Source: Pirellula sp.
Lineage (GTDB): Bacteria; Planctomycetota; Planctomycetia; Pirellulales; Pirellulaceae
Direction: 5' to 3'
Length of the DNA: 47,838 nucleotides
NCBI GenBank assembly: GCA_021300155.1
Contig: JAJTID010000113.1
Span: forward strand, 1-47,838
The stretch's first letter is position 1, and each line of letters starts with the position of its first letter. Shown here piece by piece: positions 7,261 to 42,059 of the stretch. Made by a program: the position numbers and the translations under genes. The notes beneath the pieces are model-generated. The model had not been told where the DNA came from, made no database searches, and saw nothing but the letters and a program-made list of their open reading frames with translations.

Positions 7261-7333
7261 GCGGGTGTAGCTCAGTTGGTAGAGCACAACGTTGCCAACG
7301 TTGTTGTCGTGGGTTCGAATCCCATCACCCGCT
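7261..7333 (+). tRNA. tRNA-Gly (anticodon GCC)
   Basis: The acceptor stem GCGGGTG (7261-7267) pairs perfectly with CACCCGC (7326-7332), with discriminator T at 7333. The D-arm GCTCAGTTGGTAGAGC, a perfect anticodon stem CAACG/CGTTG and a TTCGAAT T-loop are all present. The anticodon GCC is at 7294-7296 within the loop TTGCCAA, which makes this glycine. CCA is not encoded. The gene lies 51 bases upstream of the trigger factor start in the same direction, so the two are probably co-transcribed and separated by tRNA processing. Confidence 0.97.
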
Positions 7334-7384
7334 CTTGCTGTCATTTTGTGCCCTTTTTTCATCTTCGATAGGACGTTTGCAGAC

Positions 7385-36167: not shown

Positions 36168-36908
36168 CTACAAACCGCCAAAGCGGCGATGCCTTCGACT
36201 ATAGTCTGCAATGGCTTCCAGCATGTCTTCGCGGCCGAATTCAGGCCAAGCACGATTGGTGATCCAGATTTCACTGTAGCTGATTTGCCACAGCAAATAG
36301 TTACTTATGCGAAATTCTCCACTCGTTCGAATCAGCAAATCTGGGTCGGGTATCGCTGACGTATACAAATGCTGCGAAATCGTTTCTTCATTAATCTGAT
36401 CCGGATCAATGAGCCCAGACTTTGCTAGGTTGGCAATTTGCCGAACGGCATCGGTGATTTCTTGCCGACTGCCGTAATTGATAGCAAGGCATAGATGAAG
36501 ACCCGTCATCTCCTTGCTCTTATGGACGGCAATATCCATTTCTTGCAAAACATCTTCGGGCAATCCGTCGCGCCGGCCGATGATGGAAAGTCGAATATTC
36601 TTTTCGATCAGAGTTTTACTCTCGCTCACAAGAAATTGCTTCAGCAATCCCATCAAGAACTCGAGTTCTTCCTTCGGACGCTTCCAATTCTCATTGGAGA
36701 AACAATAAAGAGTCAAATGTTTAACCCCGAACTCAACGCACGATTCACAAGCTCTGCGAACGGATTTTGCCCCTTGACGATGCCCTTCGATACGTGGCAT
36801 GCCACGCTTCTGAGCCCATCTCCCATTTCCATCCATGATGATGGCAACATGATTCGGGGTGAGCAAGTCGGACGGTGCTATTTTTTTCTTGCGACGAAAG
36901 AGAGGCAT
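36168..36908 (-). CDS. uppS: Isoprenyl transferase (undecaprenyl diphosphate synthase type)
   Basis: 246 residues. All family blocks are visible: HVAIIMDGNGRWAQKRG (catalytic Asp26), GHRQGAKSVRRACESC, LTLYCFSNENWKRP, LCLAINYGSRQEITDAVRQ, PDPDLLIRTSGEFRISNYLLWQISYSEIW and WPEFG near the C-terminus. The enzyme adds cis-isoprene units to farnesyl diphosphate to make the C55 carrier for cell-wall and polysaccharide precursors. The N-terminus is short and basic. The gene begins 11 bases after the EEP protein gene, so they are probably co-transcribed. The common partners frr and cdsA are not next to it. Confidence 0.96.
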   Translation of the reverse strand: MPLFRRKKKIAPSDLLTPNHVAIIMDGNGRWAQKRGMPRIEGHRQGAKSVRRACESCVEFGVKHLTLYCFSNENWKRPKEELEFLMGLLKQFLVSESKTLIEKNIRLSIIGRRDGLPEDVLQEMDIAVHKSKEMTGLHLCLAINYGSRQEITDAVRQIANLAKSGLIDPDQINEETISQHLYTSAIPDPDLLIRTSGEFRISNYLLWQISYSEIWITNRAWPEFGREDMLEAIADYSRRHRRFGGL

Positions 36909-36919
36909 GCAATCGACCG

Positions 36920-38146
36920 TTATGGGAATTGAACATCGAGCCAGACCAAATGGTGGTCCGACGCATTCGATATGTCAATCTTGAATGCGCGTAGCTCTGC
37001 TTCGGTGGGCCAAAAGACTCCGCCGTCAACGACCTTGAGCTCTTTCGATGGAATCACAAAATCCACTCGCAAGTTTCCAGGCTCGCGATCGTTAAAGTCA
37101 CCGGTGTCATAAGCAGGATCCGCACGATGTGACTGGTTTGCTTTTCCTTGCTTTTCAGATGCTTCGACCGCACCTTTGCTCGACGGTTTGAACGATGCAT
37201 TCACACGAGCCGAGCCAAGTAAATTGGTGATTCCTGTAGGATTGCCGTTTCCGTCGGTTGGATCCGAATTCAAATCTCCGAGGATGACAAAGCGATCAAT
37301 ACTAGAAAGGCCCCCGCGAACGCCTTGATCGTCAACCATGTAGTCTCTGCCTTCAACATAGTCCTGTATCAATCGGATTTCGTCATTGTTCCGGCAACCG
37401 TTTCGGTCTTCAGGACCGTCGAATACTGGCGGCGTTGGATGCGAAGCGATCACATGCAAAACAGATTCTCCAATCTGAATTGGCACGTCCCAATGGGACT
37501 TCGAGCTAAGCCTCAATTGGTTCCAAACGGATTCGGAGTAGTAGGGTTTCCAGTTTCCAACGGACTTGTCACCTGAACCTGGCTGAAGTGCGTTTGGCAT
37601 ATCTTTCCAAAGAAAATGTTGAAACGTCCTAGCCTTGGTCGCGACGATCGGGAAGCGACTGAAGACGGCCATGCCGTACTGCCCCGGAAAGGTACCAAAG
37701 CCCCAAGCATCTTCAGGATCGGTCGTTCGGCCATTTCCATTGAGATCGAGGCCCGAGGGAACCCCTGTGTTGACTTCCTTCACGTACTGGAAATCGAAAA
37801 GACTTCGCGCTTCGGTCCCCAAGAGTTTCCCGACGTTGAGATATTTGGATCGAAGCAGCGTTGCAGACGTGCCGTTGTCATAGTCGACTTCATTGGCTAA
37901 CAAGATGTCGGGGCGGACCCATTGAACAATTGCTGCAATTTTCTCCGCTTGCGTATCCCCTCGCTCAAGGTCTCGAGAGAGTCTGCCTCTTTCCTTTCGA
38001 TTCAATGCCATGTTGAACGTAGCGATTCGAATGCAGCCTTCCTTGGGAGGGTCGATCGCCAAGCTCGACTGAATGGAGCTCATAGTTGAAACCGCCAGCA
38101 AACAAATGATTCGAACTAGAATGAGACTGCTCCCGATCGGCTGCAA
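36920..38146 (-). CDS. Secreted endonuclease/exonuclease/phosphatase (EEP) family protein
   Basis: 408 residues if started at TTG 38146, which gives a signal peptide (SSLILVRIICLLAVST..., cleavage near SSLA). The only nearby ATG (38083) would remove it, so the TTG is preferred. EEP motifs are RIATFNMALN, WVRPDILLANEVDYD, VIASHPTPPVFDG, FVILGDLNSDPTDG and the terminal ASDHHLVWLDV, covering the metal- and phosphate-binding residues. The family cleaves phosphodiester or phosphomonoester bonds; an exported form may degrade nucleic acid or lipid phosphate. Its start lies about 60 bases downstream of the intrinsic terminator of the RNA locus at 38207-38410, so read-through or attenuation could control it. 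uppS follows. Confidence 0.88.
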   Translation of the reverse strand: MQPIGSSLILVRIICLLAVSTMSSIQSSLAIDPPKEGCIRIATFNMALNRKERGRLSRDLERGDTQAEKIAAIVQWVRPDILLANEVDYDNGTSATLLRSKYLNVGKLLGTEARSLFDFQYVKEVNTGVPSGLDLNGNGRTTDPEDAWGFGTFPGQYGMAVFSRFPIVATKARTFQHFLWKDMPNALQPGSGDKSVGNWKPYYSESVWNQLRLSSKSHWDVPIQIGESVLHVIASHPTPPVFDGPEDRNGCRNNDEIRLIQDYVEGRDYMVDDQGVRGGLSSIDRFVILGDLNSDPTDGNGNPTGITNLLGSARVNASFKPSSKGAVEASEKQGKANQSHRADPAYDTGDFNDREPGNLRVDFVIPSKELKVVDGGVFWPTEAELRAFKIDISNASDHHLVWLDVQFP

Positions 38147-38206: not shown

Positions 38207-38248
38207 ATAAAAAGAACCAGGCTTCGACGAACACTCGCCGAAGCCTGG
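38207..38248 (-). terminator. Intrinsic terminator of the 38.2-38.4 kb RNA locus
   Basis: On the minus strand, a perfect 10-bp stem (CCAGGCTTCG at 38248-38239, CGAAGCCTGG at 38226-38217) with a 12-base loop is followed at once by TTCTTTTTAT. The annotated minus-strand gene starts only downstream at 38146, so this terminator must end a separate transcript arising upstream. Confidence 0.88.
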
Positions 38249-38353
38249 CCTAAGATTCAAACCGCTCGAGGCGAACGCGAGATCGGCTAACCGTCACATG
38301 TTCGCAATCGAGTGGGGCAGAGGCTGCATGTCGTTAGCAGCCCGCCGGCAACG

Positions 38354-38395
38354 CTAGGACGCCTCACCCCCACGGCCAGTACAGATTAAATTCAC
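38354..38395 (-). CDS. 13-residue mini-ORF with perfect extended Shine-Dalgarno
   Basis: GTG at 38395 begins MNLICTGRGGEAS, ending in TAG at 38354. It is preceded at six-base spacing by AAAGGAGGTGA (38409-38399), an 11-base perfect complement to the canonical 16S rRNA 3' tail and far stronger than at any other gene in this window. Its codons 7-12 form the 5' arm of helix P1, so translation and folding should compete. It could be a leader peptide or the product of a dual-function RNA. Coding is unproven. Confidence 0.45.
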   Translation of the reverse strand: MNLICTGRGGEAS

Positions 38396-38504
38396 TAGTC
38401 ACCTCCTTTCAAAAGCAGCCAGACCATCCGAATCACTTAGCCAAGAAGCGGACTCGAATGGTACGGAAACATGCAGCTACGACGCGTTTCGCAGCACTAC
38501 CCTC

Positions 38505-38534
38505 ATTTTATTTCGAATCCCCCCAAGAAATCAA
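38505..38534 (-). promoter_or_regulatory. Candidate promoter of the RNA locus
   Basis: On the minus strand, TTGATT (38534-38529) and TAAAAT (38510-38505) are separated by 18 bases, a reasonable sigma-70-type pair. Transcription would begin near 38498, about 90 bases ahead of the extended Shine-Dalgarno. The remaining part of the gap up to 38684 carries no gene I can support. Confidence 0.4.
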
Positions 38535-38684: not shown

Positions 38685-41600
38685 ATGGGAATTCGAGTCT
38701 CGCTGAATCATCGCACGGAGTACGAGTATGACCGTGACGTGCAATTAGGGCCGCAGATTGTTCGATTGCGGCCCGCTCCTCACTGCCGAACCCCTATCCT
38801 CAGTTATTCGATGAAGGTGGTGCCTGAGGACCATTTTTGCAATTGGCAACAGGATCCGCAGGGGAACTACATCGCAAGACTGGTCTTTCCGAAGACCACC
38901 AAGAAATTCTCGATCACCATTGATCTAGTCGCGGACATGACGTCAATCAATCCGTTCGACTTCTTTATGGAAAGCTATGCGGAGAAGTTTCCGTTTCAAT
39001 ACGAATCCTGGCTGCTAAACGAGCTTGCACCGTATTTGGTGTTGAGCGATCTACCAGCGGACTTGAAAGAGATCGATAAACTCTTGTCAGATATCCCATT
39101 GGATGGTGTCCGAACCATCGATGCTGTTACCGAAATCAATCGCCGACTCCAACAGCATATTCGTTATGAAATTCGAATGGAGCCCGGAGTTCAAAAACCG
39201 AGCGAGACACTTAGTCGCCGCGCCGGTTCATGCCGAGACTCCGCGTGGTTATTGGTGCATATGCTTCGGCGATTGGGCTTGGCTGCTCGCTTTGCCTCCG
39301 GTTACCTCTTGCAGCTCACTTCCGATGTAAAGTCACTCGATGGCCCGTCCGGACCGGAAGCGGACTTTACTGATCTTCATGCATGGGCCGAAGTCTATTT
39401 GCCAGGAGCTGGGTGGATTGGCTTGGATCCCACGAGTGGGCTGTTATGTGGTGAAGGGCATTTGCCAGTCGCTTGTACTCCCGATCCGTTTACAGCCGCT
39501 CCGGTAACCGGTATGGTCGAGCCCGCCGAATGTAAATTTCATTTTGAAATGTCTATCAAGCGACTGGTCGAAGATCCGCGAACAACCAAACCCTATACGT
39601 CGGACCAATGGAGTCGCATCCATGCGCTCGGCTTGCGAGTGGATGAGCAATTACAACAGGATGATGTACGTCTGACCTTCGGCGGAGAACCAACCTTCGT
39701 CTCAATGGACGACATGGATGGCCCCGAATGGAATTCGGATGCAGTTGGTCCGAACAAGCGTGTGTTGTCAGGCAAATTGATCAAGCGATTGCGTGATAAA
39801 TTTGCTCCCGGCGCCTTTCTCCATTACGGACAAGGCAAGTGGTACCCAGGCGAGTCCTTGCCTCGATGGGCGTTGACTTGCATGTGGCGTCTCGATGGCA
39901 AACCAATTTGGCAAAATGCGGATTGGATCGCAGATGAGTCGCGAAACTACTGCTTCACCTTTAAGCATGCGAGATTGTTTGCAGAAAACGTCTCAGATCT
40001 GCTGGGAGTGGATTCGAAGTGGTTGATGCCTGCCTATGAGGACACCTATTACTACATGTGGCGAGAGCAACGGCTACCCATCAATGTGAAGCCGTGGGAC
40101 TCAAAACTCGAAGATGCGGAAGAGCGCGCCAGGCTTGCAAAAGTGTTTACGAACGGCATCAACAAACCTGCAGGCATCGTCATGCCAATTCGACGCCAAT
40201 GGTGGCAGGGAAATGCTCGGTGGCAAAGCGGTCCATGGCCCATTCGTCCAGAAAAGCTCTTCTTGTTGCCTGGGGATTCCGCTATCGGTCTGAGGCTTCC
40301 ATTAGACACTCTCCCATTCTCCACCAATCTCGCTAACAACGCCGTTGTGCCCGCAGACCCTTTTTCTCAACGTCCTCCCTTGCCAACGCCATCTCCTATC
40401 GTTCGGCAGAAATCGAGCGATCCGCTCCCTGCGTCGCGCCCTAATGTACTGGGATGGGGATCCGTTGTTCCGATCGATCTCGATGATGAAGTGTCGTGGT
40501 CTGAAAGACAGGCCGCACTGAGGCGCAAAGAAGAAATAGATCCGAACTCAACGATCCGAACTGCGATGTGTGTCGAACCACGAGAGGGTAGGCTCTATGT
40601 CTTTATGCCACCAACGGAGACACTTGAGGACTATCTCGATCTACTTTGGGCGATAGAACAAACGGCTATCGATTTGAACATGCCTATCGTAGTGGAAGGT
40701 TATTTGCCCCCACGAGACCATCGACTTCAAATGATCAAGGTCACACCTGATCCTGGTGTCATTGAAGTGAATATCCACCCTTGCTCCACTTGGAGTGATT
40801 TAGTTCAGAATACGACAGTTCTTTATGAGGAGGCACGGCAATGTCGGTTGGCGACTGAAAAATTCGACTTGGATGGTAAGCATACGGGAACCGGTGGCGG
40901 CAACCATATCGTCATGGGAGGCTCAACGCCTTGGGATAGCCCATTCCTGCGAAGCCCCCATGTATTGAAGTCCATGATTGCATTTTGGATCAATCATCCA
41001 TCTATGAGCTATCTCTTTAGCAATCGCTTTATCGGCCCGACCAGCCAAGCTCCAAGAGCCGACGAAGGGAGACACGATGCAATTTACGAATTGCAAACAG
41101 CTCTTGAGTTACTGCCGGGACGCGGACAAGACTGCCCGCCATGGCTGGTCGATAGAATATTGCGAAATCTTTTGATCGACCTGACCGGAAACACACACCG
41201 CGCAGAGATTTGCATCGATAAACTCTATTCGCCCGATAGTTCCACCGGGCGCCTTGGTTTGGTCGAGCTTCGTGGCTTCGAAATGCCACCACATGCTCAA
41301 ATGAGTTTATCCACCCAACTGCTCGTTCGATGTTTGATTGCTTCCTTTTGGCGACAGGAATACAAACAACCGTTGCAACGATGGGGGAACGATCTGCACG
41401 ATAGATTCATGCTACCCCATTTTGTATGGCAAGACTTCCGTTCGGTTCTGTACTACTTGCAGCAAACAGGCTGGGAATGGGAAGAGCCATGGTTCGCATC
41501 TCATTTCGAATTCCGATTTCCGGTCATTGGAGCAGTCGAATATGACAATGTTCAAATCCAGCTGAGAACCGCCATCGAACCCTGGTACGTGATGGGTGAA

Positions 41601-42059
41601 GAGTCTGGCGGGGGTGGCACGGTACGCTATGTGGACTCGAGCGTCGAGCGAATGGAAGTTAAGGTCGAAGGTCTAGATCCGTTGCGGCATCGCGTTCTGT
41701 GCAATGGTGTTCTGTTGCCTTTGCAGTCTGCTGGGGCACCCTCTACATTTGTTAGCGGTGTACGTTACCGGGCATGGCAACCCGCGAGTTGCTTGCATCC
41801 AACAATTCCAGTACATACCCCTCTCGTCGTTGAATTGTGGGACAACGCCGCAGGTCGATCGCTAGGAGGTTGCACCTACCATGTAGGCCATCCAGGTGGA
41901 AGAAACTACGCAACATTCCCAGTCAATGCACTTGAAGCAGAGGCGCGGCGAACGGCAAGGTTCCTCAAGTTCGGTCATACACCGGGTAGGTTGCATCCAA
42001 AAATGCCTCGCTCAAATCCAGAGTTCCCATGCACCCTCGATCTCCGTCGCGAGTTTTGA
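38685..42059 (+). CDS. Transglutaminase-like protein with C-terminal DUF2126 domain
   Basis: 1,124 residues. The N-terminal bacterial transglutaminase domain (SLNHRTEYEYDRDVQLGPQIVRLRPAPH) leads to a catalytic triad in the usual order: RAGSCRDSAWLL (Cys183), DLHAWAEVYLPG (His232) and GLDPTSG (Asp248). From about residue 325 the long DUF2126 region follows (DVRLTFGGEPTFVSMDDMDGPEW, HYGQGKWYPGESLPRWAL, GTGGGNHIVMGG, LVELRGFEMPPHAQM). This pairing is well known in bacteria, often with amidoligase-like genes nearby; none is seen here. A role in peptide cross-linking or amide processing is inferred. No signal peptide; no clear Shine-Dalgarno before the ATG. Confidence 0.93.
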   Translation: MGIRVSLNHRTEYEYDRDVQLGPQIVRLRPAPHCRTPILSYSMKVVPEDHFCNWQQDPQGNYIARLVFPKTTKKFSITIDLVADMTSINPFDFFMESYAEKFPFQYESWLLNELAPYLVLSDLPADLKEIDKLLSDIPLDGVRTIDAVTEINRRLQQHIRYEIRMEPGVQKPSETLSRRAGSCRDSAWLLVHMLRRLGLAARFASGYLLQLTSDVKSLDGPSGPEADFTDLHAWAEVYLPGAGWIGLDPTSGLLCGEGHLPVACTPDPFTAAPVTGMVEPAECKFHFEMSIKRLVEDPRTTKPYTSDQWSRIHALGLRVDEQLQQDDVRLTFGGEPTFVSMDDMDGPEWNSDAVGPNKRVLSGKLIKRLRDKFAPGAFLHYGQGKWYPGESLPRWALTCMWRLDGKPIWQNADWIADESRNYCFTFKHARLFAENVSDLLGVDSKWLMPAYEDTYYYMWREQRLPINVKPWDSKLEDAEERARLAKVFTNGINKPAGIVMPIRRQWWQGNARWQSGPWPIRPEKLFLLPGDSAIGLRLPLDTLPFSTNLANNAVVPADPFSQRPPLPTPSPIVRQKSSDPLPASRPNVLGWGSVVPIDLDDEVSWSERQAALRRKEEIDPNSTIRTAMCVEPREGRLYVFMPPTETLEDYLDLLWAIEQTAIDLNMPIVVEGYLPPRDHRLQMIKVTPDPGVIEVNIHPCSTWSDLVQNTTVLYEEARQCRLATEKFDLDGKHTGTGGGNHIVMGGSTPWDSPFLRSPHVLKSMIAFWINHPSMSYLFSNRFIGPTSQAPRADEGRHDAIYELQTALELLPGRGQDCPPWLVDRILRNLLIDLTGNTHRAEICIDKLYSPDSSTGRLGLVELRGFEMPPHAQMSLSTQLLVRCLIASFWRQEYKQPLQRWGNDLHDRFMLPHFVWQDFRSVLYYLQQTGWEWEEPWFASHFEFRFPVIGAVEYDNVQIQLRTAIEPWYVMGEESGGGGTVRYVDSSVERMEVKVEGLDPLRHRVLCNGVLLPLQSAGAPSTFVSGVRYRAWQPASCLHPTIPVHTPLVVELWDNAAGRSLGGCTYHVGHPGGRNYATFPVNALEAEARRTARFLKFGHTPGRLHPKMPRSNPEFPCTLDLRREF

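Follow-up and report, generated by a model that had tools for sequence, protein, structure and literature searches.

A putative stand-alone regulatory RNA gene of planctomycetes, with a mini-ORF and mutually exclusive helices around its stop codon

On the minus strand of the Pirellula sp. DNA analysed here (a stretch of 47,838 nucleotides, hereafter 'the window') lies what looks like a stand-alone RNA gene, apparently undescribed, whose structure and open reading frame (ORF) are both well supported by sequence comparison. The mini-ORF itself looks translated, and its stop codon is spanned by three mutually exclusive, co-varying helices, an arrangement that is again well supported. From these features we infer that the element is most likely a regulatory RNA gene in which translation of the mini-ORF determines the fold, and which probably reports the availability of ribosomes. 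Its parts are listed in Table 1.

Table 1. Parts of the predicted RNA gene, in order of transcription (window positions).
Feature	Positions	Strand	Description	Basis
Whole RNA gene	38209-38534	minus	RNA of ~290 nt	predicted
Promoter-like pair	38505-38534	minus	-35 TTGATT, 38534-38529; -10 TAAAAT, 38510-38505	motif and conservation
P1	38476-38495	minus	5' hairpin GCTGCGA-AACGCG-TCGTAGC; conserved loop motif ACGC	7 bp by count
P2	38429-38456	minus	hairpin CGAGTC...GATTCG; loop GGCTA, 38442-38438	by eye from sequence
Over-long Shine-Dalgarno (SD)	38399-38410	minus	GAAAGGAGGTGA	complement of 12 nt of 16S 3' tail
Mini-ORF	38354-38395	minus	MNLICTGRGGEAS; GTG start, 13 codons, TAG stop	start, stop and frame kept; peptide neutral
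PK1 strand in ORF	38374-38378	minus	TGGCC; potential partner of P2 loop GGCTA (5 bp, one G-U)	sequence; covariation class-wide; short in this genus
Strand d	38358-38373	minus	last ORF codons; forms P3 with c	computed fold and covariation
P3	38358-38373 with 38312-38327	minus	these strands and nearby bases; 5' arm within ORF	computed fold
P4	38335-38356	minus	strand a (TAGC), conserved loop CCGGCGGG (38348-38341), strand b	covariation, loop conservation
Alternative hairpin b:c	38322-38342	minus	GGCTGC (38342-38337) with GCAGCC (38327-38322); excludes P3 and P4	covariation
Strand c	38312-38327	minus	GCAGCCTCTGCCCCAC; common to P3 and alternative hairpin	fold and covariation
Possible anti-SD mimic	38268-38274	minus	TCGCCTC; potential 7-bp pairing (one G-U) with SD bases GAGGTGA	long in many relatives, weak in this genus
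Intrinsic terminator	38209-38250	minus	hairpin and T-run	sequence

Much of this had been picked out in a preliminary description of the locus, and the promoter-like pair, the 13-codon GTG ORF and the terminator with its T-run are all present; so too is the helix (called P1 there, P3 here) whose 5' arm lies inside the ORF, such that ribosome and helix would compete for the same bases. Two further features stand in amended form: the upstream hairpin has seven base pairs by our count rather than nine, and the complement to the 3' tail of 16S rRNA, given as 11 bases, runs to 12 nt against the genome's own 16S gene. As a match, the promoter of this element is not above chance (one found, against a mean of 0.7 in shuffles); its support is conservation rather than match quality, with the -35/-10 spacing recurring across the genus alignment and a similar pair lying just 5' of P1 in 42 of 117 P1-bearing members, against 6.1 in base-shuffled sequence. 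Hairpins of the P1 type, with an ACGC loop, occur in 117/143 members (1.6 in base-shuffled sequence), and terminator-like hairpins in 119/142 (15 in base-shuffled sequence). P2 is a reading of the sequence only, as the computed fold, of 241 nt, starts inside it; that fold lies 3.6 standard deviations below its own shuffles, with none of 200 as good.

For the helices around the stop codon, as for the two longer-range pairings below, pairing was assessed by setting the complementarity of each sequence's own strands against that of permuted ones, with one representative per distinct strand and with statistics that, like the alignment counts and foldings that follow, ignore phylogeny. On this basis (142 sequences entered) a:b, b:c and d:c reach z-scores of 9.3, 8.8 and 6.1, respectively, with none of 10000 permutations as high for any of them, against -0.4 and -0.1 for the control strand pairs a:c and d:b; an unplanned comparison of a with d gave z 3.1 (19/10000), for which we have no explanation. 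In an alignment of 71 sequences (A4), P3 and P4 are 86.9% paired and 10 of their 11 pairs change on both sides, which none of 500 shuffles reaches, with a covariation of 0.261 against 0.184 when shuffled and at most 0.140 when slid. The alternative hairpin b:c is paired in 93.7% of cells of the same alignment, with a covariation of 0.328 against 0.216 shuffled and at most 0.111 slid; five of its six pairs change on both sides, a count that 21 of 500 shuffles also reach, which is not so for its other measures. Alignment column 89 changes together with both column 74 (a:b) and column 100 (b:c), as alternative pairing predicts. Free folding of 141 members gave d:c for 116 of them, a:b for 102 and b:c for 31, and with the ORF and a further 9 nt masked, b:c appeared in 136; with shuffled tails a b:c-like hairpin still formed in 97/141. 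The P4 loop motif is conserved within the class.

The sequences behind these counts derive from 170 matches, reduced to 145 distinct ones, and include 80 of the 99 stretches from the pattern scan described below. The alignments were hand-picked for diversity: A1 holds 22 of 25 loci, A3 44 of 49 listed loci (L090 and L118 having been left out of the list) and A4 71 of 73 listed sequences (L095 and L135 dropped, L096 entered without its SD, and L141 shortened).

Two longer-range pairings may join these helices to the 5' part of the RNA. The first, PK1, links the loop region of P2 to the ORF and, class-wide, reaches z 5.5 with 0/20000 permutations as high, against -1.8 for a neighbouring control region (55 types; 139 sequences entered); this significance appeared only after a post hoc change to the comparison, in which the anchor was moved to the codons preceding RGG and the upstream region narrowed to -62..-24, the first anchoring having given z 1.2 and 546/5000 permutations as high. 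The second, PK2, would join the SD to a stretch further downstream (in many members GGATCACC) and reaches z 5.0 with 0/20000, against a control of -0.3 (63 types; 142 sequences entered); in the genus of the window this pairing is weak. In one set of loci ('f7-type': L124, L130, L136-L139 and L142) the anti-SD is ACCACCT and sits directly after P3, not as GGATCACC in a later hairpin, so that strand c, the SD and ORF strand d could there compete for each other. Elsewhere, L160 and L161 have an insert beside P4, with 87 and 70 nt from loop to strand c as against 19-21 in L149 and L153.

An ORF of 10-18 codons follows the SD in 144 of the 145 distinct sequences, starting 6, 7 or 9 nt past GGAGG, and the sole sequence without one (L167) is a false match. 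Starts are GTG in 117 of these 144, TTG in 26 and ATG in one, and stops are TAG in 60, TAA in 45 and TGA in 39. From the start to GGTGG, near the end of the frame, the distance is a multiple of three in 126/128 (24, 27, 30, 33, 36 or 42 nt), a count biased upwards by an ORF caller that favoured starts giving RGG; from GGTGG to the stop it is 12 or 15 nt in 126/128, and when GGTGG was sought downstream of the chosen start, a stop trinucleotide stood at offset 12 in 116/128. The untranslated distance from stop to P4 loop spreads over 4 to 11 nt (with one at -2 and three not located). Among 81 distinct 13-codon ORFs, the 45 closest pairs never differ in their start codon and differ in their stop codon in 16 cases, the replacement always being a stop; the +1 frame is mostly open too (a stop in 10/81), and the +2 frame contains a stop in 70/81. 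Because start, frame and stop position are kept while stop codons interchange, the mini-ORF looks translated.

What the frame encodes appears to be of little consequence. The preliminary description had pointed to conservation of the peptide as a test, and although start, frame and stop are kept, the amino acids drift: in the same 81 ORFs, the closest pairs show 90 codon changes of one base each, 23 of them synonymous, where 21.5 would be expected without amino-acid selection, and for codons 2-6 the figures are 7/42 and 8.6. By this measure the peptide is evolving neutrally, and its N-terminal part varies between members in both length and sequence. These data bear on the proposal that the RNA is a small mRNA, or a dual-function RNA, with the short peptide as its active product. 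Indels in the ORF do fall nearly all in threes, and a sequence ...SQRGG.. stands near its end in most class members (RGG in 119/144); the conserved residues can nevertheless be explained by RNA pairing, SQ falling in PK1 and RGG in strand d, and in loci of other classes SQRGG is mostly gone although the ORF persists. Given this neutral evolution, the 'dual-function small RNA' of the preliminary description, if taken to mean a functional peptide, is unsupported, and we regard an active peptide product as improbable. Nor does the mini-ORF, whose peptide is neutral and N-terminally variable, hold a series of regulatory codons or an arrest peptide that is conserved. A stand-alone sensor of one amino acid, in which ribosomes stall at, for example, Cys codons, would draw on the Cys found at codons 4-5 in many members (within YCC or FCT), and we give it very little credence, as Cys is absent before the conserved end in others (MISNKLYQRGG and MSSSNSTTNQRGG, for example) and codons 2-6 look neutral.

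The SD is over-long: GAAAGGAGGTGA complements 12 nt of the tail of the genome's own 16S gene (...GGATCACCTCCTTTC). The 13-mer of this SD, GAAAGGAGGTGAY, occurs twice in the 6.46-Mb assembly: once in the element, and once antisense to the 16S 3' end. Complements of 14-15 nt to GGATCACCTCCTTTC are present in 84/144 members when G-U pairs are counted and in 21/144 by Watson-Crick pairing alone, with Watson-Crick complements of at least 11 nt in 121/144; in other classes 21 of 26 SD sites (25 loci) reach 14-15 nt with G-U. Binding of ribosomes through this anti-SD match, which the preliminary description had raised, may form part of the explanation. Taken to its limit, it would make the element a ribosome-binding or 'decoy' RNA that captures 30S subunits tightly (or factors at the 16S 3' end), with the switch only regulating that binding. 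The reach of the complement within and beyond the class and the double occurrence of the 13-mer speak for such a decoy, as might the loop sequence GRCGGG, which is also complementary to 16S CCCGUC, its variable R facing U (within CCGCCCGTC in the own 16S, a stretch that to our knowledge is universal). A six-base match easily arises by chance, however, and we consider pairing of GRCGGG with this decoding-site strand too short to claim; moreover, a pure decoy would need neither the conserved stop and frame nor the b:c, d:c and a:b alternatives, and we think this reading rather unlikely.

The element is widespread, and nearly always single-copy. By BLAST, one copy was found in 25 of 99 genomes, the window's own included, comprising 23 of the 27 of the genus and two genera beyond it. 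Successive covariance models extended this to 191 of 241 genomes of the family, in 49 of 68 genera (R1), to 178 of 396 genomes of the order and 42 of 392 of the phylum, one of the latter (L167) being false (R2), and to 293 of 397 genomes of the class, in 143 of 185 genera (R3, for which the consensus structure was named by hand, as the RNAalifold consensus for R2 was poor). Conservation and covariation, which the preliminary description had proposed to look for in related genomes, are thus both found. Across the phylum R3 matched 83 of 392 genomes, made up of 36 class-mates and 47 of the ~350 genomes of other Planctomycetota classes; the matches in these other classes are weaker, and E <= 0.01 would yield about four of them by chance, provided that the rough calibration is sound. 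A collection of 84,980 species, scanned for an exact pattern, gave 99 stretches, and the 80 titles listed are all planctomycetes or 'bacterium' bins. Two matches were seen in G234, at two contig ends, and, with R3, two also in G333. The covariance models gave no match in 4 of 27 same-genus assemblies and in several families of the order; the element may be dispensable, or the missing genomes may lie below the reach of the models.

Among the 47 matching genomes of other classes, 27 were inspected: L166, L168 and 25 that were checked base by base. All 25 have an SD and an ORF of 10-14 codons; complementarity between d and c is at least 14 in 24 of them (mean 20.9, against 13.9 shuffled), a terminator-like hairpin is present in 18 of 24, and the P4 loop is found as exact CGRCGGG in 18 of the 25 and as GRCGG after the stop in 24. 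Taking the first fitting start, 10 begin with TTG, eight with GTG and seven with ATG, so that ATG is commoner than within the class; these versions mostly lack SQRGG while keeping SD and ORF, and some ORFs (among L166, L168 and L268-L293) end in ..GLRx or ..GLHx.

The genes beside the element offer no constant partner. In the window, an EEP-family protein and undecaprenyl diphosphate synthase (uppS) are encoded downstream (36168-38146, minus strand), and the preliminary description had accordingly suggested a leader-peptide attenuator for that operon. Such an attenuator would account for helices and a terminator after an ORF; across the window and 24 related loci, however, EEP followed by uppS lies downstream in only 3/25, uppP (BacA family; one member checked) is downstream in 10/25, an ammonium transporter gene (one member checked) is upstream in 6/25, and the others sit beside unrelated genes. 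The flanking genes thus change between loci, even within the genus, so that the element can be rejected as a leader of EEP and uppS. In 39 further family loci, with three genes taken on each side, no cluster of neighbours exceeds four proteins, and the gene that follows the element shares its strand in 12/38. We therefore give an attenuator of a downstream gene next to no credence. The BacA/uppP gene that follows the RNA in 10 genus members does make for a curious repeat of undecaprenyl genes beside the element. Divergent from the RNA gene (38685-42059, plus strand) is a gene for a protein of 1124 amino acids, with transglutaminase N-terminal and core domains and a DUF2126 amidoligase, and a tRNA-Gly (gcc) lies at 7261-7334 (plus strand).

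Synthesising these findings, we propose a model for how translation might set the fold of this RNA. With no ribosome bound, the RNA would be 'closed': the SD covered, PK1 formed, and P3 (d:c) enclosing P4, with its loop CGRCGGG displayed. A 30S subunit that wins the SD would give rise to a ribosome running the 10-18 codons to the stop, which would open PK1 and P3 and cover strands d and a; strand c could then pair with b, and the anti-SD mimic and the P2 loop would be freed. As start and stop matter and the amino acids do not, the likely input is translation capacity (free 30S subunits, initiation and termination) rather than any one amino acid. The output is the least certain part of this scheme, and might lie in base-pairing in trans by the freed loop, in altered stability of the RNA, or in retention of the 30S subunit. 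More speculatively, the element could serve as a phylum-wide gauge of ribosome availability, in which the 30S subunit is captured by an SD whose match covers much of the 16S tail or all of it, one round of translation of an unimportant peptide unlocks the SD, the pseudoknot and P3, and the anti-16S-like strand so freed acts in trans together with the conserved loops, their targets being mRNAs or the 30S subunit, to tune translation or ribosome synthesis; it would then be an autonomous attenuator without an operon. We put this fuller version forward tentatively, as possible, if on balance doubtful.

That a structured RNA is kept in single copy across a class, and even outside it, points towards a general function rather than a niche one. 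If translation is indeed the input, the element would gauge translation capacity autonomously, as an RNA without a gene to serve downstream, and would offer a clear natural test of whether the passage of a ribosome can act as a signal whatever peptide is encoded. The covariance models also provide a ready means of annotating it in hundreds of genomes.

Known RNA families were considered with Rfam 15, which gave no match above gathering score for the element in the window or in 14 relatives, in keeping with the preliminary description of an unannotated structured RNA without a family; tRNAs at other positions in the scanned sequences were all that was matched, and under permissive thresholds the window gave only weak matches, the best of them, below threshold, being CC2171 (E-value 0.19; 17.9 bits, with a cut-off of 75). 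Transfer-messenger RNA (tmRNA; RF00023) can be set aside, as its model has no match in the window and, in 16 of 20 genomes, places tmRNA at a different locus; the element's own draft genome (G000) gives at best 32.7 bits against a cut-off of 47, and G001, G004 and G062 likewise have no tmRNA over the cut-off. The signal recognition particle (SRP) RNA is located elsewhere in the own genome. The 6S RNA model (RF00013) matched neither the window nor the own genome, though it matched only 5 of 14 control genomes. The literature searched holds almost nothing on regulatory RNAs of planctomycetes, and no such planctomycete RNA was found in the portions covered of PMC2864571, PMC11109978, PMC8632094 and PMC9029176. 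The Rhodopirellula-1 motif appears in a table of the first of these (Weinberg 2010; PMC2864571), where it is entered as cis-regulatory ('y') in Proteobacteria and Planctomycetes, with no Rfam accession given. With the reservation that Rhodopirellula-1 is covered by this table entry only, we regard the element as a new kind of RNA, because the context of an attenuator (a downstream gene and coded amino acids) and a selected peptide are absent, and it falls in no Rfam family.

Some likeness to known systems is nonetheless apparent. SgrS/SgrT, Spot 42 and SR1 are dual-function small RNAs that stand alone and carry a small ORF for a functional peptide; the element resembles them as a putatively stand-alone small RNA, judged here from sequence signals, with a small ORF, but its frame is kept while its amino acids drift. 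With tmRNA it shares a short reading frame within a single-copy RNA, and differs in having an SD and in lacking the Rfam match. The odc1 motif, in the portion covered of PMC8632094, is a structured RNA with its SD in a helix and a conserved ORF of 11 codons encoding a peptide of constant length, and uORF motifs, odc1 among them, precede a main gene; in the element, by contrast, the ORF varies between 10 and 18 codons and there is no main gene.

Close in logic are the leader-peptide attenuators, among which the rnTrpL RNA has a role in trans. The peTrpL peptide of Sinorhizobium, which derives from this mini-ORF-bearing attenuator RNA, acts apart from its operon, as far as the covered portion of the source goes (PMC7298713). 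The element is comparable as an attenuator-like RNA with a mini-ORF apart from an operon, and differs in that it has no link to a biosynthetic operon and no peptide conserved as such. Classical attenuators of the trp, his and ilv type combine a translated mini-ORF, exclusive helices gated by the ribosome and an intrinsic terminator. All three have their counterparts here, to judge from the comparative signs of a translated mini-ORF over an RNA helix, the exclusive helices and the terminator, which in the element is a separate hairpin beside the exclusive, co-varying ones. Set against these are the differences: no conserved downstream gene, no regulatory codon run, a neutral peptide, an SD whose complementarity extends over much of the 16S tail, and a single-copy gene present through the class and beyond. 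On the sequence evidence, the arrangement of the helices is that of attenuator logic without a downstream gene.
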